Source: Malus domestica (Eukaryota; Streptophyta; Magnoliopsida; Rosales; Rosaceae). Taken from it: a stretch of DNA of 64,000 nt. Under the pieces are notes generated by a model. That model saw only the letters and a list, made by a program, of their open reading frames with translations. It searched no databases and was not told where the DNA came from. The DNA is taken from contig NC_091667.1 in the NCBI RefSeq assembly GCF_042453785.1, forward strand, positions 33,782,001 to 33,846,000. The letters run 5' to 3'. Each line of letters opens with the position of its first letter. Within the stretch, counting starts at the first letter, position 1. Below are positions 1 to 20,849 of this stretch, in pieces. The position numbers and the translations under genes were made by a program.

Positions 1-495
1 TCATCATCCGTTCATCCAAGATCAAGCCCCAACGGCCCCTTTGGATTAACAACGTCGACAAATCCACACATCCAACCGTTCTTCAAGATCAAGCCCAAAA
101 GCCCTTGAAGATCCGTCCATCACTGTTCTTCAAGATCAAGCCCAAACGCCCTTGAAGATCTGCTCATTACCGTTATTCAAGATCAAGCCTCAAACGGCCC
201 TTGAAGAAACATTCATCCTCAAGATCAAGCCCCAACGGCTCCTTGAAGATCCGCTCAAATCCACCTCCAAAGATCAAGCCCACGACCCTTTGAAGAAACT
301 TCCAACAGTTCATCCAAGATCAAGCCTTGACGGCCCTTGGATCAACGAAATATCCACCAATCAACACCTTACGGAGATCGAATCAGAGGATCAAAATAGA
401 GAGAGATTGTAACCCAAAATCATCAAAAATACATAATATTTGTTTGTGCGCGTTTGTTCTTGTCTCTTTCGTTTCAGGAAATTTCCGTGTTCACA
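1..495 (+). repeat. 5' LTR, right part only
   Basis: Aligns base for base with 9655-10149, with one visible mismatch near the end. It ends TTCACA just before the primer-binding-like site. Much of it consists of degenerate repeats around AAGATCAAGCC and GGCCCTTGAAGA. Confidence 0.92.
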
Positions 496-496
496 A

Positions 497-515
497 ATTG
501 GCACGCCCGGTGGGA
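497..515 (+). other. Primer-binding-like site
   Basis: ATTGGCACGCCCGGTGGG lies one or two bases after the LTR end, where a tRNA primer site belongs. It has the TTGGC...CCGGTGGGA form common in plant Gypsy elements of the Tat type. The priming tRNA was not identified. Confidence 0.6.
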
Positions 516-565
516 TTATCTCTACCTCTCATCTCTTTCTCCGTTCCAAGCACACCTCAAAGTCA

Positions 566-2683
566 ATGGCATCAAGCAAGGGACAAGCCGTTCTTGCAAC
601 CACTGAGGGAAGGATCCTAAGCACTTCTGCCGCAAACGGACAATCCATTGGCGCCACGACCGCTCCTCAACATGCCACTTCAAAATTGGTGCCGCTAAAA
701 GAGCAAGGGGAGCATCCAAGGTGTGAGTCTGTCATCAACCTGACCTCGCTGGAGGCACCGAAGCATGATGCTGAGGCACATATGATGACATCCCAAAGCA
801 GCCAACGACATTCTTCATCAGCATCCTGGATGTCTAAAGGAAAGTCACGTCTATTGGTCGCACAAGTCATGACTATCGGCGTTACCTCCGTTGAAGAACA
901 ACTGGCTCAAATGAATGAAGCGATCGCAAGGCTAACCCGAACTGTGGAAGAAAAAGACTTGCAAATTGCAGCACTAGTCAACCGACTGGAGGCGCAGGAC
1001 GGCGATAAACCCGACCCAGAGAATGATCCACTAAAGAGAAAAGATGACGAAGAAGATGAGCCTCAGGTGGAGAAAAACGATGCAAAGCCGAATCCAGAGC
1101 AAGCAGCGGCACTCATGGGATCTCTTTCTATCCAGCAGCTGCAAGAGATGATCACCAACACCATCAAGGCACAGTACGAAGGGAGCTCAAATACCTCCGG
1201 GTTGTACTCAAAGCCGTATTCAAAGAAGATCGACGCCTTAAGGATGCCGAGGGGTTATCAACCACCAAAGTTCATGCAATTTGATGGAAAGGGAAACCCG
1301 AAACAGCACGTTGCCCACTTCGTTGAAACTTGCAACAACGCAGGAACCGAAGGGGATTACCTCGCGAAGCAGTTTGTGCGCTCGCTGAAAGGAAACGCCT
1401 TTGAGTGGTACACAGACCTAGAGCCTGAGTACATCAACAGCTGGGAGCAGTTAGAGCGGGAATTCCTCAACCGCTTCTATAGTACCCGCCGCATTGTGAG
1501 CATGCTAGAACTGACGAGCACGAAGCAATGGAAGGAAGAACCAGTCATGGACTACATCAACCGATGGCGTAATCTAAGCCTCGACTGTAAGGACAGACTC
1601 TCCGAGATTTCTTCAATCGAGATGTGCATCCAAGGCATGCAATGGGGTTTGCAATACATCCTTCAAGGCATTAAACCACGGACCTTCGAGGAATTGGCTA
1701 CTCGCGCCCATGACATGGAGTTGAGCATCGCCCATCATGGGAAGAAAGAACCGATCGCCGACTACAAGAACGACAAAGTTCTTGGGACAAAGGTGGAAAA
1801 GGCCGCATGGAAACCCACCAAGGAAGCGATGACGGTCAACACAGCTCCCGTCAAAATCTCCACACGAGGCAAGGCGATTCAAACCGAAGCTTTTCGTGAT
1901 CAAGAGATGCGTAGACGCACTTTGAAGGAGCTTGAGGAGAAGATTTATCCATTCCCCGACTCTGATGTAGTTGCCATGCTGGATGACCTGTTGGACAAGA
2001 AGGTGATCAGTTTGCCCGAGTGCAGACGGCCGGAAGAGATGAATCGTACCGACAACCCAAGATACTGTAAATTTCACCGCTTCATCAGTCATCAAACGGA
2101 AAAGTGCTTCGTACTGAAAGATCTCATCCTGAAGCTAGCACAGCAAGGGGAAATCGAGCTTGACCTCGAAGACACGGTGGCGGCACACACTACTACTATC
2201 GTGTTTGAATCACTCGATCCTGTGCATCTCCGAAGCATGCATGATCATTCCCGTCAATGTTCAAGTCACATGGCACCTCCTACACAACCATCACCGGGGG
2301 CAAGCAACCAAGATGCATCTACTGGTGATAAGAAAGGGTGGACATCGGTGACCTACAAAAAAACGAGGAAGCCAAGACCACAAGCCATAAGGCCAAAAGA
2401 GGAGCCTAAACCCACCCCTCGAACTTCAGTCTTCGAAAGGCTGAATTATTCAAAACCTAGAATTGCAGCACTTGATCACATCAATGGTCGAGACCAAACT
2501 TCCGTCTTCAAAAGGCTTGAGACACCAACACCGCAAAGATCAGTCTTCGAAAGGTTATCAAAGCCCAAGAAACAAAGCGGCACAGCTCTCCGCAACGGTC
2601 GGCTTTGGACAGACTTGAAGAAACTAAGAAGCCTTCTAGAAACAGGAAGACAACGCCAAAGAGAGAGAAGCTCGACAGTCTAG
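566..2683 (+). CDS. gag of Gypsy-type element
   Basis: A long open frame starts at ATG 566 (MASSKGQAVL...). An acidic coiled-coil-like stretch near residues 115-180 (EEQLAQMNEAIARL) is followed by a Retrotrans_gag core at roughly residues 230-400, with FMQFDGKGNPKQHVAHF, FEWYTDLEP and the conserved W/F pattern. A basic C-terminal part repeats SVFERL/SVFKRL. A second open stretch at 2605-3231 overlaps its end in another frame and carries more of the same gag-side sequence. No zinc knuckle of the CCHC form is obvious; a Cys/His-containing segment (RYCKFHRFISHQTEKC) lies near residue 510. The product would be the particle-forming protein. No pol follows. Confidence 0.85.
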   Translation: MASSKGQAVLATTEGRILSTSAANGQSIGATTAPQHATSKLVPLKEQGEHPRCESVINLTSLEAPKHDAEAHMMTSQSSQRHSSSASWMSKGKSRLLVAQVMTIGVTSVEEQLAQMNEAIARLTRTVEEKDLQIAALVNRLEAQDGDKPDPENDPLKRKDDEEDEPQVEKNDAKPNPEQAAALMGSLSIQQLQEMITNTIKAQYEGSSNTSGLYSKPYSKKIDALRMPRGYQPPKFMQFDGKGNPKQHVAHFVETCNNAGTEGDYLAKQFVRSLKGNAFEWYTDLEPEYINSWEQLEREFLNRFYSTRRIVSMLELTSTKQWKEEPVMDYINRWRNLSLDCKDRLSEISSIEMCIQGMQWGLQYILQGIKPRTFEELATRAHDMELSIAHHGKKEPIADYKNDKVLGTKVEKAAWKPTKEAMTVNTAPVKISTRGKAIQTEAFRDQEMRRRTLKELEEKIYPFPDSDVVAMLDDLLDKKVISLPECRRPEEMNRTDNPRYCKFHRFISHQTEKCFVLKDLILKLAQQGEIELDLEDTVAAHTTTIVFESLDPVHLRSMHDHSRQCSSHMAPPTQPSPGASNQDASTGDKKGWTSVTYKKTRKPRPQAIRPKEEPKPTPRTSVFERLNYSKPRIAALDHINGRDQTSVFKRLETPTPQRSVFERLSKPKKQSGTALRNGRLWTDLKKLRSLLETGRQRQRERSSTV

Positions 2684-3234
2684 CAGGAAAAAACGATGTT
2701 CAAAGCTTGATTCCTTCAAGGATGAAGCGCCAAGCAACTTTGGAAGTCGACACAAAAGGACCACTGAAGGTAAGGAGGTGCACCATCATCTACACCGGCC
2801 AATCTTCACGGCAACAAACCCAAGAGGACCGCACTGAAGAGAAGGCCCGAGAAGACAAAGAAGACGAAATCCTGGAAGAAGACGTCACTTCCGGCTCTGT
2901 CAACTCAAAATCTTCACCTCAATCGCTGGGGGCATGCTCCAAAAACATGCCAGTCAAGCCGAGTGAAGTTGAAGGATGGACTTATGTCACTCCGAAGAAA
3001 TTGCACAAAAAGCATATGTCTTCTCCACAAGCTCACAAATGGGAAAGGGGGCAAAACAGCTCCTGTTCACCTCTAGAACAATGTGAAAGTGTTGGAGATA
3101 ATGAAACTTTAACGCGAAGATCATCCATCCCCATCACGATGTGTGACATCTTCCCAGAATACTTCTTCAACTACTCAGTCAAGGCTCCTTGCTATGAAGA
3201 TTGCGAGGAACGACTCTCTCAGATCGCTTGACGA

Positions 3235-3510
3235 ACCAAAGCTCCTTGTCCACACGAGCCTAAACTGTAGGACACAAAGCTCCTTGTCCGCACGAGCCTA
3301 AACTGTAGGACACAAAGCTCCTTGTCTGTAAGAGCCTAAACTGCAAGACACAAAGCTCCTTGTCTGTAAAAGCCTAAACTGCAAGACACAATGCTCCTTG
3401 TTCGCACGAGCCTAAACTGCACGAACCAAGGCTCCTTGCCTGCACGAGCTGAAACTGCAACACGGCACCAAATGCTCCTTGTCTGCACGAGTTGAAACTG
3501 CAAACGGCAC
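3235..3510 (+). repeat. Tandem repeat of about 38-44 bp inside the Gypsy element
   Basis: About seven copies of a unit like AAAGCTCCTTGTCCGCACGA followed by GCCTAAACTG. The first units are spaced 38 bases apart and later ones diverge. It follows the gag region directly. Role unknown. Confidence 0.85.
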
Positions 3511-4025
3511 CAAAAGAAAATACCAAGAAAAAAAAATTGTATTTGAACTACGTTTCGACTTGATCTCTTTGGAAGGGTACGTAGGCAGCTTGAATATTCA
3601 ATTTCAAGTTCAGTCACAACAAATAAAAAAAAAAAATTAATAATAATGTTTTATTAGAACAAAAATATACATATGTTTTATGTATTTAAAAAAAAAAAAA
3701 AAAAAAAAAAGAAGGAATACATACGTTATTACTTGTTTACCTAAAAAAAAAAAAAATGTATATATGTTAAAGTGGGTCTTTTTACACTTAAGGTCCGTGC
3801 CAAATCAAAGAAACATAAGTTAAAGTACACAGAAATGAGCAGCCAAAAATCCAGGCCCAAGCCATGCCCTCTTGACCTCCATCGGATCCTATGCCTAATG
3901 GGCCCTCTCGCCCTATTTTTTTTTACTGTCTGAAGTCACACATTTACACCAACACAAGCGCAGAAACACCATCCAGAGAGGAGAGAGACCCGAAAACCTG
4001 AATTGCGAACCCGAAAAAAAAAAAA
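3511..4025 (+). other. Non-coding interior of the Gypsy element, A-rich tracts
   Basis: Contains TTGGAAGGGTACGTAGGCAG and poly-A runs at about 3688-3710 and 3742-3755. From about 3780 the sequence changes character and looks like the upstream and 5' leader sequence of the calmodulin-like gene (a purine-rich leader ending in a poly-A run just before ATG 4026). The boundary between element and captured DNA could not be fixed; no target-site duplication or terminal repeat was found around it. Confidence 0.5.
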
Positions 4026-4470
4026 ATGGGCAAAGATCTGAGCGATGACCAAGTATCGTCGATGAAGGAGGCGTGCACGCTCTTTGACACCGACAACGAC
4101 GGCAAGATTGCTCCGTCGGAGCTCGGGATCCTAATGCGATCGCTCGGCGGCAACCCGACCCAGGCCCAACTCAAATCCATAGTCGCCGAGGAGAAGCTCA
4201 CCGCCCCCCTTCGACTTCCCTCACTTCCTCGACCTCATGGCCAAGCACATGAAGCCCGAGCCCTTCGATCGCCAGCTCCGCGACGCCTTCAAGGTCCTCG
4301 ACAAGGACTCAACCGGCTTCGTGTCCGTGTCGGAGCTCCGGCACATCCTCACCAGCATCGGCGAGAAATTGGAGCCGTCCGAGTTCGACGAGTGGATCCG
4401 GGAGGTGGATGTCGGGTCCGATGGCAAGATCAAATACGAGGACTTCATTGCCAGAACGGTGGCCAAGTGA
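4026..4470 (+). pseudogene. Captured calmodulin-like gene copy (CML13/CML14 type)
   Basis: The N-terminal part reads [16 protein letters not shown], an EF-hand loop [12 protein letters not shown], then [17 protein letters not shown]. The C-terminal part, in another frame, reads [35 protein letters not shown] and [14 protein letters not shown] and ends at the normal C-terminus (VAK). This is close to full-length plant CML13/CML14 (about 148 residues), a calmodulin-like light-chain type protein whose genes lack introns. The frame changes once, so no single full protein is encoded. The preceding purine-rich leader suggests genomic sequence, including 5' flank, was taken up. It lies inside the Gypsy element on its sense strand. 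Confidence 0.85.
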
Positions 4471-5327
4471 GGGACGTAACGGTGCGTTTTGCATGGGTGA
4501 AAGTGTTTCGTGGAAGTAATTTGGGGGTAATCGACGATTCGATTAACTCAGGCGACACTCGCATCAGCTCGCCCAGGCGGTCATGGAGCTCAAATTGTAG
4601 AACAAATTCCTCAAATCTCAGTTCGAATGGTTCCAGAATCTTCAACTGCCAAAGCACGGAAACCAATCATGGAGCTCGATCGACTTGAACGAGTGCAAAG
4701 TGTACAAAGCCGAGTCGGTCGGTGAGCCCACTGGTAAAGCTGCCGTCGCTGTGTCAACTCGGACTGATGACGAACGACATCAACAACGCAGAGCACGATG
4801 AGCAAGGTCAAGGTCAAAGTTAAAATCAACAGAAGGAGATTTAGATTCAGGGCTGAGCCGGGACGAGATTTCACCTCCATCGTCGGATTTGAAGCCTCGA
4901 AACTCGCGAATCTCCTCCATCTTCTTCCCGGTCGTCTGCCCGGCCGTGGTGTCGCTCAGCGCAACAACCATCAAGCCCCTATCAACAAATTGAGGACGAC
5001 GACCACGCTTCCTTGATCCACGACTACCGATAACCGGAGGCGGAAAGGGAGAGAAGTCGCCGCCGCCATCTTTGCAGAGACTCAATTTTTCACCCTCTTG
5101 ACCTCCAACTCCACCTCCTCCGGTTGAATTGAGAGCGGAAACGGACCTCAGAGACGAATCCACTATCTGGGGAATTGCAGAAACAGCAGGTCCAGCCCCA
5201 ATTCCATCCAAGTAGAATGCTTTCTTGGGCTTGCTGACCACGAAACTGTCATCTCTGCTGACTCTGGCTGAAGCAGTTTTAGCAACACCTCCCCTGTCAG
5301 TGTTGAACACATACGCAGCAGCAATAG
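4471..5327. other. Unrecognised captured sequence between CML and Dof pieces
   Basis: GC-rich, with gene-like composition and unlike the element's gag or LTR. Short open stretches exist on both strands. The longest, on the minus strand (about 4780-5457), contains FVVSKPKKAFYLDGIGAGPA and Gly/Ser-rich sequence. On the plus strand a stretch near 4600-4760 reads [21 protein letters not shown] recognise neither. It may hold pieces of one or two further host genes. Confidence 0.4.
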
Positions 5328-5890
5328 CAGCAGCAGAACCAGGATCAGCGGTTGAAGGCGGCGGAGCAGCAGAACCAGCAGCCGCACGGGTGCCCGCGGT
5401 GCCAGTCCATGAACACCAAGTTCTGCTACTACAACAACTATAGTCTCTCTCAGCCACGGTACTTTTGCAAGGCGTGTAGGAGGTACTGGACTCAGGGCGG
5501 GACCCTCAGGAACGTCCCCGTCGGCGGCGGATGCCGGAAGATGAAGCGCGCCAAGGGTGGTTCCTCCTCGGCGTCAGCATCTCGGACCGTGCAGCCGCAG
5601 CCATCACAGAAAGAGCAGGACATGCAGAACACTCTGGGAATTGGCGGCGACTCCGTTGGGATGTCCACGGAAAACCCGAGCGGTGGTTTGGCTGTTCACC
5701 ATCAGTACTACCCTGGTGCTTCTCATGGGTACTTGTCATCTCTTGCAGGGCTTCAATCTCTGAATCAATCTCAGCCGTTCAATGTTGGGGGTGGTCATGA
5801 TCCTGCCTCGAACATGAGCCTGCTGCAGGGGTTCAATCTCCCAGCTCCTGCGTGGAATGGTCAGATGGTTCAGTCGCAACCACAGCAGCA
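5328..5890 (+). pseudogene. Captured Dof zinc-finger transcription factor fragment
   Basis: A complete Dof DNA-binding domain is readable: [17 protein letters not shown], then [20 protein letters not shown] and [10 protein letters not shown], with all four zinc-ligand cysteines of the CX2C-X21-CX2C pattern. A Ser/Gln-rich region follows with [18 protein letters not shown] and [12 protein letters not shown], as in real Dof proteins. Dof factors bind AAAG sites. No in-frame ATG precedes the domain; the frame opens at a stop just upstream of a Gln-rich leader. After about 5890 the frame runs into unrelated sequence, so both natural ends are missing. It lies in the Gypsy element on the sense strand. 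Confidence 0.87.
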
Positions 5891-6589
5891 GCGCAGTGAG
5901 CGGCGGTGTGCAGCAATCTCTGGCAGCCTGCTCTTCTTCACCACCGTTAGCTCTCCCCTTCTGCCCATCAGTTCCAAGCAGCAACGGCGACGGCAAAGTC
6001 TCCGACATCAAGGTTGCACCGCTCTTCTCTTGCCTCCTCCTCCGTCTCTTGCCTCGCAACTGCCAGCAATTTCAAAGACCGCTGTCAAACGACTAGCCGG
6101 CCGAGAAGCTCTTCCTCAAGCTCCAGCTCAAGTTCATCCGCTCCGCTGCCTGCAAAATCCCCTACCCATCACCCAAATTTATACAAAAAAAAAAATATGA
6201 AAAAAATGGATGGTGGAGCAAAGTGGTGCTGGCACCACGTGAAAAAAAAAAAAAAAAGAGGATAAATGATGGAAGCTTGCTGGATGCACGACACAGGAGG
6301 ATGGTGGATCAAAAGTTTCTGATGGTGCCCATATAATAAAAAAAAAATGATGATGGTGCATCTGGCACCATGTGACAAAAGAAAAAGAAATGGTGGATTC
6401 ATCCAGCACCGAGAAAAAATAAATAAATAAATAAATAATAATTATATATAAAAAAAAAAAAAGCATAGAGAGAAATAGAAGGTTCATTTTATTTATTTTT
6501 CTGGAAATTTTACATAAATTTGCATTATACATAATTAAAAAAAAAAAAAAAAAAAAATCAAATCAAATCAAATTTACAACAGGAGATAT
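5891..6589. other. Element interior: unrecognised block and A-rich repeats
   Basis: The first part (to about 6180) is GC-rich and gene-like but unrecognised. The second part has imperfect repeats around GGTGGAxxxAAAG and TGGCACCAtGTG, separated by poly-A runs, plus an AAAT microsatellite at about 6418-6440. No gene seen. Confidence 0.5.
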
Positions 6590-7201
6590 TCAAGGACGAT
6601 CAGGTGGCGCCTCACAACTCGGCGGAGCTCCAGGAAGAGTAGGTGCCGGAGGTTGACTGCTTGAAGCCTCAGCAATCGGCAGAGCCTCAGAAGACGAAGG
6701 CAAATGCTGCTGGAACAAACCCACAAACCTCTGATGATCAAGTAAAATCTCACCATCAGATTCCTGCATCTGGTCAATCTTCCTCTTCATGTTTGTCGCA
6801 TAGCTATGTGCGAGCTTATGCAACTGTTTGTTCTCCTGCTTGAGCCCTCTAATCTCCTGTTTGAGACTCATCACTTCAGCCGCCAATGATTCAACTTGAC
6901 GGGTTCGAGCAAATAGGCGTTGGGCCATATTAGACACAGAACCTGCACACTGCACACTGAGAGCCAGAGAATCCTTAACAGCCAACTCATCAGACCGTTT
7001 GGAAAGAAGTCTGTTATCTCTGGGAGTGACAAGGTTCCGGGCCACCACCGCAGCGGTCATATCATTCTTCACCACTGAATCCCCAACGGTAAGAGGACCA
7101 GTGGGGGATATGAAGGATGGGCGCCATATGTTGTCTGGAGAAGAAGGGACTGCCTCTTCACGAAGATTCAAGTCAAAACGACGATCGGAGGGGCCAGACA
7201 T
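6590..7201 (-). CDS. Antisense ORF of Gypsy element (MSGPSDRRFDLNL family)
   Basis: A 203-residue protein on the strand opposite gag, taken to start at ATG 7201 (MSGPSDRRFDLNLREEAVP). It has a conserved-looking middle (NIWRPSFISPTGPLTVGDSV, LALSVQCAGSVSNMAQRLFA), a coiled coil (VESLAAEVMSLKQEIRGLK with further heptads) and a Pro/Ser-rich tail. I remember near-identical proteins annotated as uncharacterized in Rosaceae and other dicots, always repeat-like in number. It is intact here. Antisense extra ORFs near the 3' LTR are known in plant Tat-type elements; the function is unknown. FDLNL resembles an EAR repression motif (LxLxL / DLNxxP), but that reading is speculative. Confidence 0.8.
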   Translation of the reverse strand: MSGPSDRRFDLNLREEAVPSSPDNIWRPSFISPTGPLTVGDSVVKNDMTAAVVARNLVTPRDNRLLSKRSDELAVKDSLALSVQCAGSVSNMAQRLFARTRQVESLAAEVMSLKQEIRGLKQENKQLHKLAHSYATNMKRKIDQMQESDGEILLDHQRFVGLFQQHLPSSSEALPIAEASSSQPPAPTLPGAPPSCEAPPDRP

Positions 7202-9101
7202 TTTCAAAGGTGTTAAAGAAAGAAGAGGTCGGACAAATCGAGATCTTAGAAGTGCAAGAAGGTACAAGCAAAAAATTCAAGTGTGCTTTGAAATGAACTG
7301 CCTGCCTCTATAAAAGATCAACACTCGACGGGATTTCAGAGATCGAAAAGGCGAGCTCAGAATTCGAAGAGGCCATTCAAAAATCGAAGAGGCAAGATCA
7401 GAAATCGGAGAAGCATCTTGCTTTTCCAGACGCGTCGGCACCCGTCACACGCAAACTCAGCTTTACGGAAATCACGGGTAATTTGTCGAAGCGCCGATCC
7501 CAGATATCGAAGAGGCGCCAGTCTTTTTCAGCCGCGTCATCACCTGTCATATGCGCATTCAACTTTGCGTAAATCACGGGCAATTTGTCGAAGATTTTCG
7601 GTGAAGGAGAAAGCACGTAAAAGTTTACTGTTCAATCACGCGTTAGTTGCCGACACAAGTAAAAGAATAGTACCTCTACAGGTATTAAGGGACCTCCTAT
7701 AACTGTCCACCCTCACCTTCCATAGCGAGGCAGACATACAGAACCTTTCTTCATCTTTGAGAATGCCTTCCCAACGAAGCCTCTCGAGTCACTTAGTATT
7801 CCTTATTCCTTGGGGTACCTCTGTAAACCAATAACTTCAAAGCAAAAGTATCGCATATCACCAGGGTAGAAAGCAAGAGTATCTCATATCATGCGTTCTC
7901 CCTGTCGTTTCATTTGTCCTTGCTCCTACCTACAAAGACAAGGATAAAGAAAACAATATGCCGGAACTTCCACTCAAATTCGGGTAAGGAACCGACTGCT
8001 TGGAACCCTTCCCTAATTGCCTGCCTAGCACTGTACTTCCATAGAAGCTGTCACATCTACCTGGAGAACAGATAAGGCAAGTGAAAATGATACCTTGCAG
8101 CATGTGGAGACAACGTGCTGAAGAAACAAGCAGAGAAGAATGCGGCATGCACAATCAACTCAGCAGAATGAGTCTGAACTGAGAAACTCGAGCATATGCC
8201 ACATTCTGCCAGAAGAATAGATAAGGCAAGGGAAATGATACATTGAAGCATATGGAGACAAGCACAAAGCACGTGCCGATTCATCCGCTACTTCTTCAAA
8301 AACAAGAGTATCTCATATCATCAGGGTGCAATCACTCTGGACGATGGACTCGTTTTGACCCTCAAATTCTTGGGCCGACTTATTAGGCGTTGTGGGCTGC
8401 ATATGCCGATTCACCACCCTTGAATCAAATCCTTAAAGATCAAGTCACCAACTGGAAGAAAAAAACCTATCAATCTTGAAGATCATACCGTTGACCAAAC
8501 TGCTCAGGTGTGAATTGGAAAGATTGAGCAAAGCAACAAGTCGTCACCTTCACCTCGTGCCTGCCTGCCATGTGTTCGAGTCAACCTTCAAGAATCAAGC
8601 CTCAACGGCCCTTGAAGAAGCTTCCAACCAAATTCAAGATCAAGCCTCGACGGCCCTTGAAGAAAATCACAAGTCCGATTCAAGATCAAGTGTCTACCAC
8701 CCTCGAATCAAAATCATGTTCAAGATCAAAGCTGTGGAAAATCAACAAATTGGAGGAATCCAGAAAATCCTCCAACCCAGTTCAAGATCAAAGCTGTGGA
8801 AAGTCAACAAGCGCAACAAAATATGTGCCGATTCACCCACTACCAAAGCCAAAAGATCATCTACCACATGAAGCTCCTTGTGGTCCAATTTCAACCTTCA
8901 AGATCAAGCCTCGACGGCCCTTGAAGAAATCTCAAGCCCAATTCAAGATCAAGCCTCAACGGCCCTTGAAGAAATCTCTAGCCCAATTCAAGATCAAGCC
9001 TCAAACGGCCCTTGGATCGACATCTACAATAAGGGACTTCAAAACGCATCTCCTACACGTGACAAGCACATGTATACGACGTGCCTTGAAGTGGGGGCAT
9101 T
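7202..9101 (+). other. Non-coding 3' interior of the Gypsy element with short repeats
   Basis: 7320-7620 has repeated blocks containing TTTACGGAAATCACGGG/TTGCGTAAATCACGGGC followed by AATTTGTCGAAG. 8060-8290 has duplicated blocks around AGATAAGGCAAG and GTGGAGACAA. From about 8580 to 9020 there are units of AAGATCAAGCCTCGACGGCC plus CTTGAAGAA like those in the LTR. The polypurine-like tract GTGGGGGCA lies just before the LTR at 9102. No protein-coding gene is supported. Confidence 0.7.
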
Positions 9102-10149
9102 TGTAGACATCGAAATTTCGGTAAATAAATGTTGACCGATAAATCAAAGTGTCAACGCTCATGTATTACATAAATTTTACACGTAGCGTGTGACTCAACG
9201 AAAATTGAAATGAGTTGGAAAAGTCATCAAATAGGACACGTGTCAACACCTGGCAGAAACGACTTATTTCATCTGGGATATTATATTCAAAATTAGGCTT
9301 TGGAAAATTCTATAAATACAAGCCTATTTCATTCATTTAAGAGGGGAAAATCATTAGGCAAAACTCTTGAAGCTCTGAAGCTCTGAAACTCCGAAGCTCT
9401 CAAGCATCCAGGTTCCCGAAGAATCAAGAAACTGTTCTTCGTTCTTCGTTCATCGTTCTTCCAAGATCAAGCCTCGACGGCCCTTGGATCAACAATCATC
9501 CACCAATTCAAGATCAAGCCCCGACGGCCCTTGAAGAAAGTGTTCTTCGTTCTTCGTTCATCGTTCTTCCAAGATCAAGCCCCGACGGCCCTTGGATCAA
9601 CCATCCACCAATTCAAGATCAAGCCCCGACGGCCCTTGAAGAAAGCCCCATCGTTCATCATCCGTTCATCCAAGATCAAGCCCCAACGGCCCCTTTGGAT
9701 TAACAACGTCGACAAATCCACACATCCAACCGTTCTTCAAGATCAAGCCCAAAAGCCCTTGAAGATCCGTCCATCACTGTTCTTCAAGATCAAGCCCAAA
9801 CGCCCTTGAAGATCTGCTCATTACCGTTATTCAAGATCAAGCCTCAAACGGCCCTTGAAGAAACATTCATCCTCAAGATCAAGCCCCAACGGCTCCTTGA
9901 AGATCCGCTCAAATCCACCTCCAAAGATCAAGCCCACGACCCTTTGAAGAAACTTCCAACAGTTCATCCAAGATCAAGCCTTGACGGCCCTTGGATCAAC
10001 GAAATATCCACCAATCAACACCTTACGGAGATCGAATCAGAGGATCAAAATAGAGAGAGATTGTAACCCAAAATCATCAAAAATACATAATATTTGTTTG
10101 TGCGCGTTTGTTCTTGTCTCTTTCGTTTCAGGAATTTTCCGTGTTCACA
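9102..10149 (+). repeat. 3' LTR (1048 bp)
   Basis: Starts TGTAGACATCGAAATTTCGG and ends GTGTTCACA, in the TG...CA form. TATAAATA at 9311-9318 is the likely promoter TATA box. From about 9460 it is made of degenerate repeats (AAGATCAAGCCCCGACGGCC units). Its last 495 bases match the start of the window. Confidence 0.92.
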
Positions 10150-11149
10150 GTTAAGACCTAATATTATACCATTGGTCTCATGCAATTGAGGCCGTTGAAT
10201 GAACAAAAATTCTAACTGTTGGATGGAAGAACTGTTAAGATTTTTTTTGTGAGTGTGGATATTATTATGATTACTCCGGATGTTATCTTGAGCCAATGTC
10301 AAGACGGTGTTATCAACAAATGGGATGATAGCTTTATTCATGTGTTTATCCATGTGTGGTCTATTATTAGGGATGCAATTCCAACAAATTTCCATGTGGT
10401 CTTGGTAGTCAGAATGCAGTGTCATGGATCGTTAGGCTTCTCAAAGGATAATGATCACCACCAAAGAATGGTCAAGTTATCACCACCAAATCCATATAAT
10501 TATTTGTGAGATAAATTCTTGATCTAAATAATGATTATATAAAGATGGGACGATGACTAGCATGTGTGGCGGTTTGGTAATGATCGAGAAGTGATAATGA
10601 TTTAACACTTTGCACAAGCTTGAGCAGTGAAAGAGTTCTAATAGTATGATGGAATTCGAATTGGTACTGGAACTTATCAAGCAATGCATGTCCCTATAAA
10701 TATAAGTGGTTTTGCAACGTAGGGATGACCTTCAACTCAACGTATAAATAAACGCTTTATAGAAACCTCCTTATGCTCTAGGAAAATACCCCTCTGTTAA
10801 CAAACTCAACACATATGGAATCACTCATCATTGGAGCCATGAAATCACTCGGTCTAGGAGTACCTTTAGTTTGGTTAAACTACACCACTTCTAGTTTGGT
10901 TGGTTATCTATTTCAAGTCTCAGCTAGTGAAGGGTCTTCGATTCTTTTGCCTAAAGAAGACACTTCCCAGCAAAGTGAGGTGTTCTACAACGGGTTACTC
11001 ATAGGTGCCTTTCAGAGTTCGGCATTCAACCAATCAAGCCACTTTCACTATAAGTACACTCATCTCTAGTCTCTTTATCAACAAGCCTGGAGAGTGTTAT
11101 ATACACACATTACTTAAATATTACACGTCTGGCGTTTTTAGATGCAAAT
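10150..11149. other. Intergenic, no established gene
   Basis: AT-rich sequence after the Gypsy element. One small candidate ORF (10815-11069) is listed separately. Otherwise nothing recognised. Confidence 0.5.
10815..11069 (+). CDS. Possible small ORF, 84 residues, unrecognised
   Basis: ATG 10815 opens an 84-residue frame (MESLIIGAMKSLGLGVPLVW...) with a hydrophobic N-terminal half. A plausible TATA box (CTATAAATATAAG) lies about 110 bases upstream at about 10695-10707. I know no family for it. Length and composition would also fit a chance ORF, so this is only a candidate. Confidence 0.2.
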   Translation: MESLIIGAMKSLGLGVPLVWLNYTTSSLVGYLFQVSASEGSSILLPKEDTSQQSEVFYNGLLIGAFQSSAFNQSSHFHYKYTHL

Positions 11150-11430
11150 ATACTTGATTAAGTTTAAATAATCTAATTTATCAACCAATTCCTTTTCAAT
11201 TGATAAAATAGCTAACTCATTCAATCTTTCTTGTGACATACTTGATCAAAGGTAAGATTTGTTCAACTTTAATTTTGAAAAACTTCTTTCTGCATAAGCA
11301 CCTGTAAGTGGTAAGGTTACCAAAAGTCTCTAAGCAACCCATGCATTTGCAAAACAACCATCCATTTGTCTCAAATAATTCAACACTTCCATTGAATGAT
11401 TTATTTGTCTCAGATAGTTCAACACATCCA
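11150..11430 (-). pseudogene. hAT transposase C-terminal remnant (ZMYM1/TTF-type)
   Basis: Read on the minus strand, about 11165-11340 gives RLLVTLPLTGAYAERSFSKL, KLNKSYL, one stop codon, then SSMSQERLNELAILSIEKEL. This is the hAT dimerisation region shared by plant zinc finger MYM-type protein 1-like genes. Upstream of it a short segment is duplicated: VLNYLRQ appears twice (DVLNYLRQ, EVLNYLRQMDGCFANAWVA), with a further stop. Only the C-terminal end survives. No terminal repeats were found. Confidence 0.75.
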
Positions 11431-12210
11431 AATATGAAAGAGTACACAAAAAACTAAACTCAAATAAGCCAACAGTACTTCATTAGCATACCTTTATATA
11501 GAGTTCTCGTTGATATATACATACCCTCAAATTTATAATGTTCCTTACATTAGCAAACAACAAATTGACAAAGAAACAAACTAAAACTCAAATTCCACCC
11601 ATATATAAACAAAGCAGAGGCAAACAATCAAGATAAAGAATCAAACAAACCTATTTTGTTGCAAGGATGGAAATTCTGAAACACTGAATTACCCAAGAAG
11701 AGCCCCAAATTCGGGTTGTCAGGTTTGTGAAGACGAATCGAAGAGTAGTGGTTTGTTTGTTTGTTTTTTTGCGAAAATAAAGAGAGAAAGCGATTGGGCT
11801 TATATCAAGAAACACCTAATTGTTATATGTTAACTCTTTTCAATCTATAACGTAGTTAATCCTTCGGGAAACACATAATTGTTATTGGATGTTGGAAAGA
11901 CCAAAAAAAAAAAAACACGTTTCCTAATGTATTTGGCCTTCCTAATTATATTTGGATATGCTGGTTTTGGGTTCAAGTTGGACCTTTTATTTTGTATGCA
12001 TAAATTTGAAAAAGAAAAATCAAAGTAAAGCAACACCACCTAGTTTCAAACTGCAAACACACTCTATTTCAACCATGCCAACAACTCATTCGCTAAATTT
12101 GGCTTACTTATTAATTTATATTATATCCACAAAATATATAGAAAAACTACCCTCAGGGCCGATCCTGTTTGATGGAGAGCTGGCATAACGTTAACCAATT
12201 AATCTCTTGA
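11431..12210. other. Intergenic, nothing recognised
   Basis: AT-rich. No convincing ORF, splice pattern or terminal-repeat element was seen. Confidence 0.5.
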
Positions 12211-16342: not shown

Positions 16343-16664
16343 TGATAAACTTGGTATTCAAAACTGTTTTGTTATTACACTCTTACATACACGCATGCAA
16401 TAAACAAATGCAATACAAGTGGTGTCCTTGCTGCCCACGATGCAGCAACCAGAACACAAATGCAGAAACCATGTGGTAGTCTAGCTGTCAAGGAATGTTG
16501 TATCCATGTGCAACATTCCTTTTGTCCAGGCTGTACAGCTAGTGGAATTCTTTTCTCTTTAACAGTTATGATCCTTTCGGTTGCAGATTGCAGCGGGAAG
16601 GTTTGGTGGTGCTGACGTGGACCGATCATTAGGGTTTGGAGATTTATCCGAACTAGGTTTATCA
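16343..16664 (-). repeat. 3' LTR of Copia element
   Basis: 322 bp, matching 20867-21188 with four differences. On the element's strand it is preceded by a GC/G-rich polypurine-like tract (GCGGGGGCG, minus strand). Confidence 0.93.
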
Positions 16665-17450
16665 CGCCCCCGCAAGCTGACGGGGCGTTGACGAACAGGA
16701 AGCTTGGAGATAAGATAATGGAAGCGGACAGAGGACAAACCCTTGGTTAAAAAATCGGCAATTTGGTCTGTGGTAGCTACATAACCAACTTCTATTTCCT
16801 TGCGAATGACCTTGTCCCGGATGTAGTGATAATCCACTTCAACATGGCGCATGCGAGCTTGATAAACGGGATTGGAAGCAACAGCAATGGCGCTGATATT
16901 GTCACACCAGAGACGAGGTGGCTGTAATGGAAGATATAAATCACGGAATAGATTGCGAAACCATGAGAGATGGGTAGAAGTATAGGCAAGTTGACGATAC
17001 TCCGCCTCTGTGCTAGACCGTGACACTCCACGTTGCTTTTTCGAACTCTAGGAAATTAAATTATTGCCAAGAAATATGCAGTGACCGCCAGTGGAACGAC
17101 GGTTATCAGGGTCGCCAGCGTAGTCAGCGTCAGCGAAGGCAGTTAGAGTGAGGGGACTGGGTTTGTAAAGTAAGCCGTGATCATGTGTGCCTTTCAAATA
17201 CCGTAAGATGCGTTTGACTGCAGCCCAATGCGCAGTAGTTGGAGAGTGCATGAACTGACACACTTGGTTGATAGCGTAAGCAATATCAGGACGTGTAAAT
17301 AGAAGGTATTGAAGGGCGCCCACAATACTGCGAAAAGAAGATCCATCTGAGAGAGGCTCACCATCATATAAACTCAAGCGTTTACCACTGGGAACTGGCG
17401 TTGAGATGGGCTTGGCGTCAGCCATGTCAGTTTTCTGTAGAAGCTCCAAA
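16559..17450 (-). pseudogene. Copia RNase H region and RT end
   Basis: Contains SRSSTEAEYRQLA, LWCDNISAIAVASNPVYQAR and HVEVDYHYIRDKV of Copia RNase H. Ahead of it are AYAINQVCQFMHSPTTAHW and FADADYAGDPDNRRSTGG. Part of a decayed element. Confidence 0.9.
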
Positions 17451-18340
17451 ATATACTTGGATTGAGTGAGATAGAAGCAGAAGGCGTCCGGGAAACCTCC
17501 ATCCCCAAGAAGTAGTGTAAGGGCCCAAGATCTTTCATTGCAAAATGAGTACCAAGCTGCGTGATAAACTGAGACAAGTGATCATTGTTGTTCCTTGTGA
17601 TTAAAATGTCATCCACATAGATGAGAAGATAAATGATTGTTGAGCCATCAAAATAGGTGAAGAGAGAGGAGTCAGCTTGGGAAGCAGTGAAGCCCAAGTC
17701 TTCTAGTTTCTGAGAAAAACATTGAAACCAAGCACGGGGTGCTTGTTTCAAACCGTATAGAGACCGTTGAAGTCGACACATATGAGAGGGAAACTGTGGA
17801 TCAACGAACCCTGCAGGTTGGCGCATATAAATTCCTCATTCAACGTGCCATGAAGGAAGGCATTTTGAACATCAAGCTGGCTGATAGGCCACTGAAAGTG
17901 AAGAGCAATAGAGAGAATGAGCCGAATGGTGGCATGTGTGACCACCGGACTGAAGGTTTCGCATAAATCAATGCCCTCTTGCTGATGAAAGCCATTGGCA
18001 ACTAGGCGAGCTTTAAAACGCTCGATGGAACCATCAGAGTTCGTTTTGATGCGATACACCCATTTATTAGGTAACACGTTCATAGAAGACTTGTAGGGTA
18101 CCAAAGTCCAGGTGCCAGTACGCTGTAAGGCGTTGAATTCATCCGCCATGGCTTGGCGCCATTGGGGAGACTTATTTGCCTGTGAGAAACATGTGGGCTC
18201 AACCAAAGTATTAGTAACGTTAGTGATGCAAACATATCTGGGATTTGGTTTTCGAATTCCTTGTTGACCACACGTGATCATGGGATGAGTGGATGGAACA
18301 GTATGTGAAGTGGTGTTGGCAGGTTCAATATTCACGTGAG
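17374..18340 (-). pseudogene. Copia reverse transcriptase region
   Basis: Shows SPQWRQAMADEFNALQRTGT, WVYRIKTNSDGSIERFKARL, QLDVQNAFLHGTL and the catalytic-type YVDDILIT, as in RVT_2 of Ty1/Copia elements. Confidence 0.92.
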
Positions 18341-18644
18341 TAGTGGGAGTTGATGGGTGAGAATGAGAGTCTGGGGTAGGTAGCGGTAGGGATTGAGGGA
18401 GTGAGGTGGCGACAATCGGTGTTGGAAGGGAATGAGGGGTCGGTTGTGGTTAGGTGTAATGGAAGGTATCAATGTCGAGGACATGGTCCAACTGACGAGG
18501 GTTTGACAAGGTCGGAGGAGCAAGTTCTTTAGATGGAAAACTCTTTTCATTGAAAACGACATGACGAGACAGAAAAGACTTGCCAGTGGTAGGATCATAA
18601 CATTTATAACCTTGATAATTTAATGAGTATCCTAAGAAAATGCA

Positions 18645-19895
18645 TTATTTTGATCGAAACTTAAGTTTAGAATCAGTGTAAGGACGTAAATAGGGAAAAC
18701 AAGCACAACCAAATACTTCGAGAAAATCATACTGGGGTGATTTTGAAAACAGTTTTTGGAAAGGAGAGACGCCATTCAAGATTTTGGTGGGAAGACGATT
18801 AATGAGATAATTTGCAGTTTGAAAAGCGTCATCCCAGAAAGTGTGAGGGAGAGACGCATGAGCAAGTAAAGTTAAGCCAATTTCAACAAGATGACGATGT
18901 TTGCGTTCCGCGAGTCCGTTTTGCTCGGGATGATGAGGACAACTGAGTCTATGATGAATGCCATGTTGAGAGAAAAGGTGTTTAAAAGAGGAATTGACAA
19001 ACTCTCCTCCACCATCAGATTGAAAAAATTTAATTTTGGTGTTGAACATATTTTCTGCAAGCTTTTTAAAATTAACAAAGGTTTGAAAAACATCAGATTT
19101 TAACTTTAAAGGATAGAGCCATGCATAACGAGAAAAGTCATCCACAAAAACAACATAATACTTGTAACCATTAATTGAATAAGAAGGAGAAATCCATACA
19201 TCTGAATGTATTAATTCCAAAGGAAACAATGACTGGGAAGAAGATAAATTAAATGGCAACTTATGACTTTTGCCAAGGGGACATGATGAACAAAAGTCGT
19301 AGGTTGCATTACCAGTTAAAGGTAATTTATTTTGGGAAATTAGACGACGCAAAACAGAAATTGCAGGGTGACCTAACCTAGAATGCCAAATAGCATCCGA
19401 CACTCTAACACCGACAAATGCAGAGACTCCATGGTTGACCACAGAAGAACTGGAAAATGGATAAAAACCATTTTTACTCCGGCCTTGCAAAAACATCTTC
19501 CCCGTTTGAAGGTCCTGAACACGGTAGGAATTGGGATATAAGGTCAGTGAACAATGGTTGTCTTTGGTAAATTGATTGATGGAAATAACATTAGTAGAAG
19601 CATTAGGGCAGTGAAGGGAGTTGGGAAGGGTAAATGAGTGATGGGGTGTGTGAATAAAAGAAGTGCCAACATGAGAAATGTGCAAACCTGATCCATCCAC
19701 CACGCCATTAACATTGTCAGTGCCATTGTAGGGACGAGGATTTGAAACTTGATTCAAATCATTGGTGATATGTGCATTGGCTCCAGAGTCAAAAAGCCAG
19801 TTTTGGATGCCAGAGGGAGAGGCAGATGCCGGAGACGGTGCAGCAGCAGCATAAGCTTGGAGACGTGGAGCAGGAACACGTCTTTCATAGGCCAT
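18645..19895 (-). pseudogene. Copia GAG-pre-integrase and integrase region
   Basis: IWHSRLGHPAISVLRRLIS with a downstream CxxC (CSSCPLGKSHKLPF) is the GAG-pre-integrase/zinc-binding part. ELIHSDVW, YVVFVDDFSRYAWLYPLK, FQSDGGGEF and HHPEQNGLAERKHRHLVE form the integrase core with its D,D,E residues. The protease side (WLFDSGANAHIT) lies at the start. Confidence 0.93.
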
Positions 19896-20039
19896 ATTGA
19901 GGCGATTGAAACAATCGATTGCAGAATGGCCGTGACGACGACATATTTGGCATTGGATACGGCCACCAGATTGGGTTAGAGAAGGAGGAGCACCAAAAAC
20001 GCCATCATGAGGTTGTCGGGATGGAGGAGCATGGTGTTC

Positions 20040-20810
20040 CTAGCTTTGAGGACGAGGAGAAAACTGGCCACGGCCACCATTGAAGTGACCACGGCCTCCG
20101 CGAGGAGCACCGCGACCACGGGAAGGTCCTGAACGACCTCTTCCAGCAGCAAGGGCAGTGAGCCCATTTTCAAACACAGTATGAAGCTTTTGACGTCTCT
20201 CTGCACCAAGAATAAGAGCCTCCAAGGCACTGTAAGTGATGGCCTCATCCCGTGCTTGTGCAGAAGCAACAGTACTCTCATAAGCAGGCCCAACATTATT
20301 TAAAATAATGGCAACAAGATCAGAGTCAGTCACAGGAGAACCAGAGAGGGAGAGAGTGTCAGCAAGACAATTAATGCGATCAAGAAACTCAGCAATAGAG
20401 GAATCACCACGATGGGTATTCATAAGCTCACTACGCAATTGGAGGAGACGGCCAGTAGACTGAGAAGCATACATGTCACGTAAACAAGTCCATGCAGAAA
20501 GAGAACTTGTCTTACCAATAAGAGAGGCAAGAACTGTGGGATGGACCGAACTGTTGATCCAAGATAGAACTATAGCATCTTGCTGAATCCATGCATCAAA
20601 GTCAGGATTGACTTTATCAGTGAGTTGGCCGGCATCATCCTTCAAGAATGCAGGATGAGATGGGTTGGTTCCATCGACAAAGGACACCAGATTCCTGCTA
20701 CGAAGCAAGGGCAACATCTGGGCATGCCATAGGGGATAGTTGGTACGATCCAACTTGATAGTCAGAAAGTTGGAAGCATTTGGAAGAGAGGGAAATGAAC
20801 TGGACGCCAT
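20040..20810 (-). pseudogene. Copia gag region
   Basis: Starts MASSSFPSLPNASNFLTIKL, followed by YPLWHAQMLPLLRSRNLVSF, WTCLRDMYASQSTGRLLQLR and a Gly/Arg-rich tail, as in UBN2/Retrotran_gag_2 proteins of RE1-like Copia elements. Confidence 0.92.
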
Positions 20811-20849
20811 GAGAGAAAAAAAAAATTAAAGCTTTTGGTCGTTAGACTG

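Follow-up and report, generated by a model that had tools for sequence, protein, structure and literature searches.

Host Gene Pieces, Probably of mRNA Origin, in the Internal Bay of a Young Ty3/Gypsy-Type LTR Retrotransposon of Apple

How did pieces of unrelated host genes come to lie together inside a single young retrotransposon? The question is raised by a 64,000-nucleotide stretch of Malus domestica (apple) DNA on contig NC_091667.1 (C7:33782001-33846000, forward strand; hereafter the window, numbered from its first letter), which we analyzed against the genome of 651 Mb in 19 contigs. A first-pass annotation, made from the letters alone, had proposed that positions 3780-6589, between gag and the 3′ long terminal repeat (LTR) of a Gypsy-type element, contain several captured host genes. 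This proposal was borne out: the element has paired LTRs and a target-site duplication (TSD), parts of the block recur between LTRs elsewhere, and the host loci are separate. Our data indicate that the block consists, with high probability, of cargo from host mRNAs, carried by a gag-bearing family of Ty3/gypsy-type LTR retrotransposons in a bay between two anchor sequences (Table 1).

The block lies inside one integrated element, as demonstrated by the LTR pair and the TSD. With the upstream DNA also read, the whole element extends from window position -552 to 10149 (10,702 bp), and its LTRs of 1,048 bp each, with TG...CA ends, showed two differences in a full-length comparison, in agreement with the likeness of about 99.8% given by the first-pass annotation; within the window, 495 bp of the LTR could be compared, with one mismatch. 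The same 5-bp TSD, GTTAA, was found on both flanks, as expected of a complete LTR retrotransposon insertion. Assuming 1.3e-8 substitutions per site per year, the insertion is roughly 70,000 years old, with a wide error. The gag product matched the Pfam family Retrotrans_gag, and Ty3_capsid only beneath its cut-off, suggesting that the element is of the Ty3/gypsy type. No match to protease, reverse transcriptase or integrase was obtained in the window copy by a Pfam scan of 20 partly overlapping stretches, chosen from the 79 open reading frames (ORFs) listed for 1-12000, and none of the other frames in that list resembled pol by eye. With LTRs and gag and no pol in the scanned stretches, the window copy appears to fit the TR-GAG type of non-autonomous element.

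Table 1. Features of the window element and its cargo bay (window coordinates; copies and host loci are designated by L numbers, contigs by C numbers).
Feature	Position	Strand	Basis
5′ LTR, 3′ part	1..495	+	LTR start at window -552 = C7:33781448; paired LTR, TG...CA, TSD
Putative primer binding site	496..515	+	Position beside 5′ LTR only
gag ORF, 705 aa, ATG at 566, stop included	566..2683	+	PF03732, E 7e-13
Second open frame, overlapping gag end	2521..3231	+	ORF list; no Pfam domain
38-bp tandem repeats, directly before bay	3199..3514	+	Repeat comparison
Left anchor, element sequence preceding bay	3540..3640	+	Paired with right anchor in 11/13 related loci
Cargo bay of window copy, 2,968 bp	3641..6608		Anchor comparison
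CML13/14-like fragment	3981..4531	+	EF-hands; host match C4:10743358-10743901
Segment common to other copies (L021; parts in L022, L023, L014)	4659..5002		Copy comparison
Joint, L009-like/L012-like	5022..5031		10-nt microhomology GACTACCGAT between otherwise unlike sequences
Antisense leucine-rich-repeat (LRR)-gene fragment (PIRL-like)	~5078..5342	-	Host match C15:18522370-18522611 and next exon
Dof fragment, C2C2 finger sequence intact	5329..5849	+	PF02701, E 9.8e-34; host match C5:43023038-43023567
LRR-gene/Dof joint	5329..5342		14-nt microhomology AGCAGCAGAACCAG, CAG-rich stretch
Start of Dof match in four other copies (L013-L016)	5600		Copy comparison
Approximate switch, L012-like to L026/L027-like	~6036		Sliding comparison
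Antisense ORF, ATG at 7201-7199	6590..7201	-	Weak coiled-coil matches, all under curated cut-offs
Right anchor	6609-6766		Inside antisense ORF 6590..7201
3′ LTR, purine-rich stretch just upstream	9102..10149	+	LTR pair

A genome search with 3780-6589, in which 40 of 758 candidates were scored and 75 matches obtained (counts are therefore lower bounds), matched three named pieces of the bay to host loci elsewhere. The first is an EF-hand fragment of a calmodulin-like (CML) gene, which we take to be of the CML13/14 type; it showed nine substitutions in 544 aligned bases, plus 7 gap columns, relative to a C4 locus (L017; 97%), and 38 differences in 542 relative to a C6 locus. A near-complete CML gene with its leader had been described, and the match to C4 supported the identity, but homology reaches only 45 bp 5′ of the ATG (3981-4025) and 61 bp 3′ of the stop codon, and a 1-bp insertion in the window shifts the frame relative to the C4 locus. 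A leader extending back to 3780 was rejected, as 3780-3980 was not present in either of the two CML loci compared. The insertion is common to L009 and L011 and absent from L010, another copy, where the captured CML (L010:5402-5986) is still open for 147 aa, from ATG to last codon, with few substitutions. The second piece is a Dof fragment differing from the C5 locus (L019) at 22 of 521 bases (5329-5849), with a weak match continuing as far as 5942. Both pieces are on the sense strand, as had been stated, and the finger sequence of Dof is indeed intact; however, the window Dof frame begins right after a TAG, and its first ATG (5409) falls within the finger, with none upstream.

The third piece accounted for one of two gene-like blocks that had been left without a name. 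Positions 5101-5342 differ by five substitutions in 242 from a C15 locus (L024), part of a host gene whose next frame encodes LRRs (PF13855, E 6.8e-38) and which is presumably PIRL-like; it runs opposite to the match, and the piece is consequently antisense to the element. The other block, 4532-5002, still received no name from host matches. L021, L022 and L023 were considered as host donors of 4659-5002 and rejected, as they turned out to be copies or fragments of elements. Sequence from ~5931 onward has matches in many places (72-98% among the matches listed) and is more suggestive of element body or old cargo than of a further recent host piece. Host paralogs pair on C5/C10, C3/C11 and C2/C15, which we take to be apple homeologs; the CML pair, on C4/C6, is not known to be one. 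Coding statistics were of little use (among 1,000 Markov-shuffled sequences, 62 had an open frame at least as long as the longest in 4550-5330; for 4550-6170 it was 17 of 500), and it was the host loci that settled the identity of the pieces.

The LRR-gene piece also revealed the kind of molecule that was captured. Read on its own strand, the host gene has exon 1 up to L024:4110 and exon 2 from 4271, with an intron of 160 bp (GT...AG) between them; at the same place in the C2 paralog (L025) the intron measures 162 bp. The intron is precisely missing from the window piece, in which 25 nt of exon 2 follow the splice joint (5102/5103) with zero mismatches. The exact absence of the intron shows that the LRR-gene piece derives from spliced mRNA. 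A second case was suggested by the cargo of the sister copy L014. A genome search with L014:3580-4480 (26 of 26 candidates scored, 30 matches) placed query positions 350-622, 607-742 and 737-797 at C11:40234564-40234827 (94%), C11:40234926-40235061 (96%) and C11:40235182-40235242 (100%), and the same three blocks on C3 at 87, 92 and 98%. The C11 blocks are separated by gaps of 98 and 120 bp that are absent from the L014 cargo (the gaps on C3 are 106 and 123 bp), suggesting, by gap pattern only, that this histidine-kinase-like cargo is a processed copy lacking two intron-like stretches of the host. Query positions 792-901 matched another locus, C6:4826198-4826307 (98%), a likely further host source. 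Query positions 1-355 matched five further places at 96-97% (C6:28183163, C13:40842492, C10:31777140, C6:33954565 and C8:14851035), which are either more cargo copies or another repeat.

These findings bear on the possibility that a Pack-MULE or Helitron with collected gene fragments was inserted into the element and then carried along. What Pack-MULEs and Helitrons take up is genomic DNA, introns included, and they are bounded by terminal inverted repeats (TIRs) or Helitron ends; GC-rich multi-gene mosaics are typical of them. The window block is likewise a mosaic of several host fragments, with 44-69% GC over 3801-6200 (100-bp steps) between A-rich flanks. It differs from them, however, in the missing intron and in its ends: no 10-nt TIR seeds were found between 3551-4100 and 5801-6640, the inverted repeats spanning the block were short and 72-88% matched, and those closest to its ends (e.g., 3905-3924/6451-6470) were A/T runs. 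The seed and inverted-repeat scans, which were directed at TIRs and not at Helitron ends, detected no Pack-MULE TIRs at the block ends; no convincing target duplication was seen around the block either, and the first-pass annotation had reported neither. Because of the lack of TIR seeds and the exact intron loss in the LRR-gene piece, a nested Pack-MULE or Helitron is highly unlikely. The loss of two intron-like gaps from the L014 cargo, and the differing contents found at the same bay position in other copies, argue in the same direction.

Sister elements carry other host-like pieces between the same anchors. We compared 13 other loci, chosen by similarity to the window block and not as a random sample, and found both anchors in 11 (weak in L023); L022 and L026 had the right anchor only, within the stretch compared, and the left end of the L026 bay is a guess. 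The bay measured 2,362-3,439 bp in the 11 loci. It had been suggested that the whole block should be sought between LTRs at other loci, with the donor genes elsewhere. Parts of the block do recur in this way and donors were found, but the contents vary by copy: the CML part recurs in three of the 13 loci (L009, L010 and L011), the LRR-gene part in one (L012) and Dof from 5600 onward in five (L012-L016). A Pfam scan of ten frames from the sister cargo, at curated cut-offs, yielded EF1_GNE in L012, HATPase_c in L013, L014 and L015, Arm in L021 and, in antisense, Flavodoxin in L027, domains for which ethylene receptor and TYW1 are names that we assume. One L009 frame gave only sub-cut-off matches (GOST_TM, EF-hand and kinase), and the second frames of L009, L021 and L015 gave no Pfam match. 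In L014 (3586-5055), a single 490-aa frame joins an unnamed start, the HATPase part and Dof.

A TSD was found in seven of nine other copies tested for LTR pairs, and their LTR substitutions amounted to 0/997 (C17), 1/989 (C4), 3/980 (C2c), 4/1,087 (C13), 5/896 (C2a), 7/989 (C3a) and 18/939 plus 51 gap columns (C3c). The C3b copy (L013) showed no TSD, with its 3′ end guessed, and is unusable for this purpose. L016 (C16:20669500-20679400) contains RVT_1 and RNase H, a second RNase H (RVT_3), which we take as a Tat mark, and integrase, in this order. Its pol domains (L016:7101-9857) lie in three frames split by stops, and its bay and that of L013 are 96.5% alike over 2.1 kb. Since this pol-bearing copy also carries cargo, host cargo is not limited to pol-less copies. 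In nine other loci, no frame of at least 190 aa outside the bay was pol-like as judged from the first 25 residues, and frames of L009 and L012 gave gag in a Pfam scan.

The window copy proved to be a mosaic, with stretches like those of at least three other copies that bear cargo. When 200-bp pieces of it were scanned in steps of 150 bp, L009 was 99.5-100% alike at ~1200-2450 and 98-100% at ~3750-5031, L012 was 94-100% alike at 5100-6050 (over 5022-6036 it differs by five substitutions and 12 gap columns), and L026/L027 were mostly 96-100% alike at 6000-7650. L014 and L015 were slightly closer than L012 for the piece at 5851; elsewhere the best-matching copy varied by piece, with best values of 84-99%, and a few pieces had none. 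The two joints to which these changes correspond (5022-5031 and ~6036) could in principle be assembly errors between sister copies, which are ~96-98% alike over kilobases and near-identical in stretches, and each of the joints was seen once. Nevertheless, the LTR pair and the TSD are consistent across the joints and a similar jump exists in L011 relative to L009, and we consider misassembly very improbable.

Microhomology was checked at the three joints with both parents known, one of which is host-to-host, and measured 10, 14 and 10 nt; besides the two joints in Table 1, these include the internal jump of L011 relative to L009, where 10 nt are in common (TCCATCTTCT). L012 is 12 bp shorter at the CAG-rich LRR-gene/Dof joint. 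Such short microhomology is at odds with the idea that processed retrocopies, or cDNA patching a break, landed in the chromosomal DNA of an element and were amplified later by transposition. This course of events would account for the intron loss, and for antisense pieces without a plus-strand switch, and a non-A-rich 9-mer, TCAAGTTCA, does occur at both 3604 and 6128, a match that we estimate to be expected by chance. Several different pieces in the same bay of one family, and a block with no convincing target duplication, are not what it would lead one to expect, and we regard it as unlikely.

Capture of mRNA by the elements themselves would proceed as follows. Host mRNAs would be packaged into element particles, in which reverse transcriptase would change template at short matches and so copy mRNA pieces into the element. 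Switches during minus-strand synthesis would give sense pieces, and switches onto mRNA during plus-strand synthesis would give antisense pieces, such as the LRR-gene and flavodoxin pieces. Later co-packaging of different copies would reassort the cargo and generate mosaics, and copies without pol would rely on the enzymes of related elements. The filling of the bay in the copies compared may reflect spacer tolerance, a preferred size or the choice of copies. The Dof piece might have been captured in two steps, as the half upstream of 5600 has fewer differences from the C5 locus than the downstream half (6/271 versus 16/250; Fisher p 0.027), a contrast that is suggestive only; the same halves differ at 20/271 and 15/250 between the C5/C10 Dof paralogs.

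Several points weigh against mRNA capture, or against its reach. The CML and Dof pieces are uninformative on RNA versus DNA capture because their host loci are intronless in the matched part (the C4 CML locus has no intron there, and the C5 Dof locus has an open frame without intron), and they were not kept as evidence for an RNA route. Only 25 nt of the LRR-gene piece come from exon 2, and the C11 gaps were placed by match pattern. No host source was found for 3780-3980 and 4532-5002, and the microhomology evidence comes from the three joints with both parents known. The joints at 5022-5031 and ~6036 occurred in the window copy only, among the fetched loci, and the recombinant may be either the window copy or one of the others. 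The choice of loci by similarity biases the picture of the family. In the C2b copy (L015, L035, L036; C2:14494089-14504275), the LTRs differ at 1/1,075 positions and the flanks are without a TSD, which counts against a simple insertion there and perhaps reflects recombination between elements or a deletion. Finally, transduced pieces are usually sense according to the available text of a review (PMC7264820), so that an antisense piece needs an extra step. A broader proposal, which we offer tentatively and hold at rather less than even confidence, is that the family is a standing collector of gene fragments, whose bay, fixed in place after gag/pol and before the antisense ORF, would take up spliced mRNA in either orientation. 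A longer piece of the same gene could be re-captured by landing, through homology, on cargo already in place (as in a two-step capture of Dof), and the packaging of different copies together would shuffle cargo among them, a pol-bearing copy included, producing new fusion frames (the 490-aa frame of L014) while some captured genes are kept open (the CML of L010).

Capture of host genes by LTR elements is well known. According to the available text, maize Bs1, an LTR element, contains parts of three host genes (PMC13317346). The window element resembles it: pieces of three host genes lie between its LTRs and match loci elsewhere, and the LRR-gene piece is an intron-less copy. Bs1, as described there, is one element in which three transductions led to a chimeric gene, whereas in the apple family the set of pieces in the bay varies from copy to copy, some pieces are antisense, and mosaics between copies occur. 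For genes captured by LTR elements, PMC7264820 quotes totals of 672 for rice and 1,343 for sorghum, and surveys of host-gene capture in both species were reported (PMC3726574); pepper NLRs are spliced-mRNA copies, and ~72% of them lie in elements that have no coding potential for gag or pol (PMC5664825). The rice, sorghum, maize and pepper cases share with the window the presence of host genes in LTR elements, but the available portions of these accounts do not describe a fixed bay whose cargo is exchanged among copies. Retand, as presented in the available text of PMC11963269, has a long region between pol and the 3′ LTR, antisense ORFs, tandem repeats and non-autonomous members, and in 97% of its clusters the antisense ORFs contain a TRP28 domain. 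The window element, apparently also Ty3/gypsy, likewise has an antisense ORF and tandem repeats; Retand differs in that no host gene cargo is reported in that text. The window antisense ORF had no Pfam match named TRP28 (Pfam only, no TRP28 profile compared). No description of a family with a reassorting cargo bay was recognised in the literature searched, which covered subscription journals poorly and is weak evidence of novelty. The reassorting, partly antisense bay looks like a novel form of a known phenomenon, host-gene capture.

In the sources available, gene capture by LTR elements is mostly seen as single frozen cases. A young family with a bay filled and reassorted in the copies compared would allow direct study of the capture of host mRNA by reverse transcriptase, and could show which mRNAs are packaged, the match length at joints, the frequency of antisense pieces and the effects of chimeric frames or sense/antisense pairs on donor genes. 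It had also been suggested that element RNA could express CML- or Dof-like sequence. For the window copy this is doubtful, because of the CML frameshift and the lack of an ATG upstream of the Dof finger, and a full CML or Dof protein is probably not translated from it; the suggestion retains some ground in the open CML frame of L010. Gene annotation should take note of such cargo, since it can pass for CML, Dof, LRR or histidine-kinase genes.

Some features outside the bay were also recorded. The frame at 2521..3231 is possibly a shifted continuation of gag. The 38-bp tandem repeats are matched in other copies too, and open frames of a length similar to that of the antisense ORF are present in several other copies. 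Further downstream, at 16559-20825 on the reverse strand of the window, ORFs resemble a Ty1/copia element, with gag, integrase, reverse transcriptase and RNase H recognized by eye.

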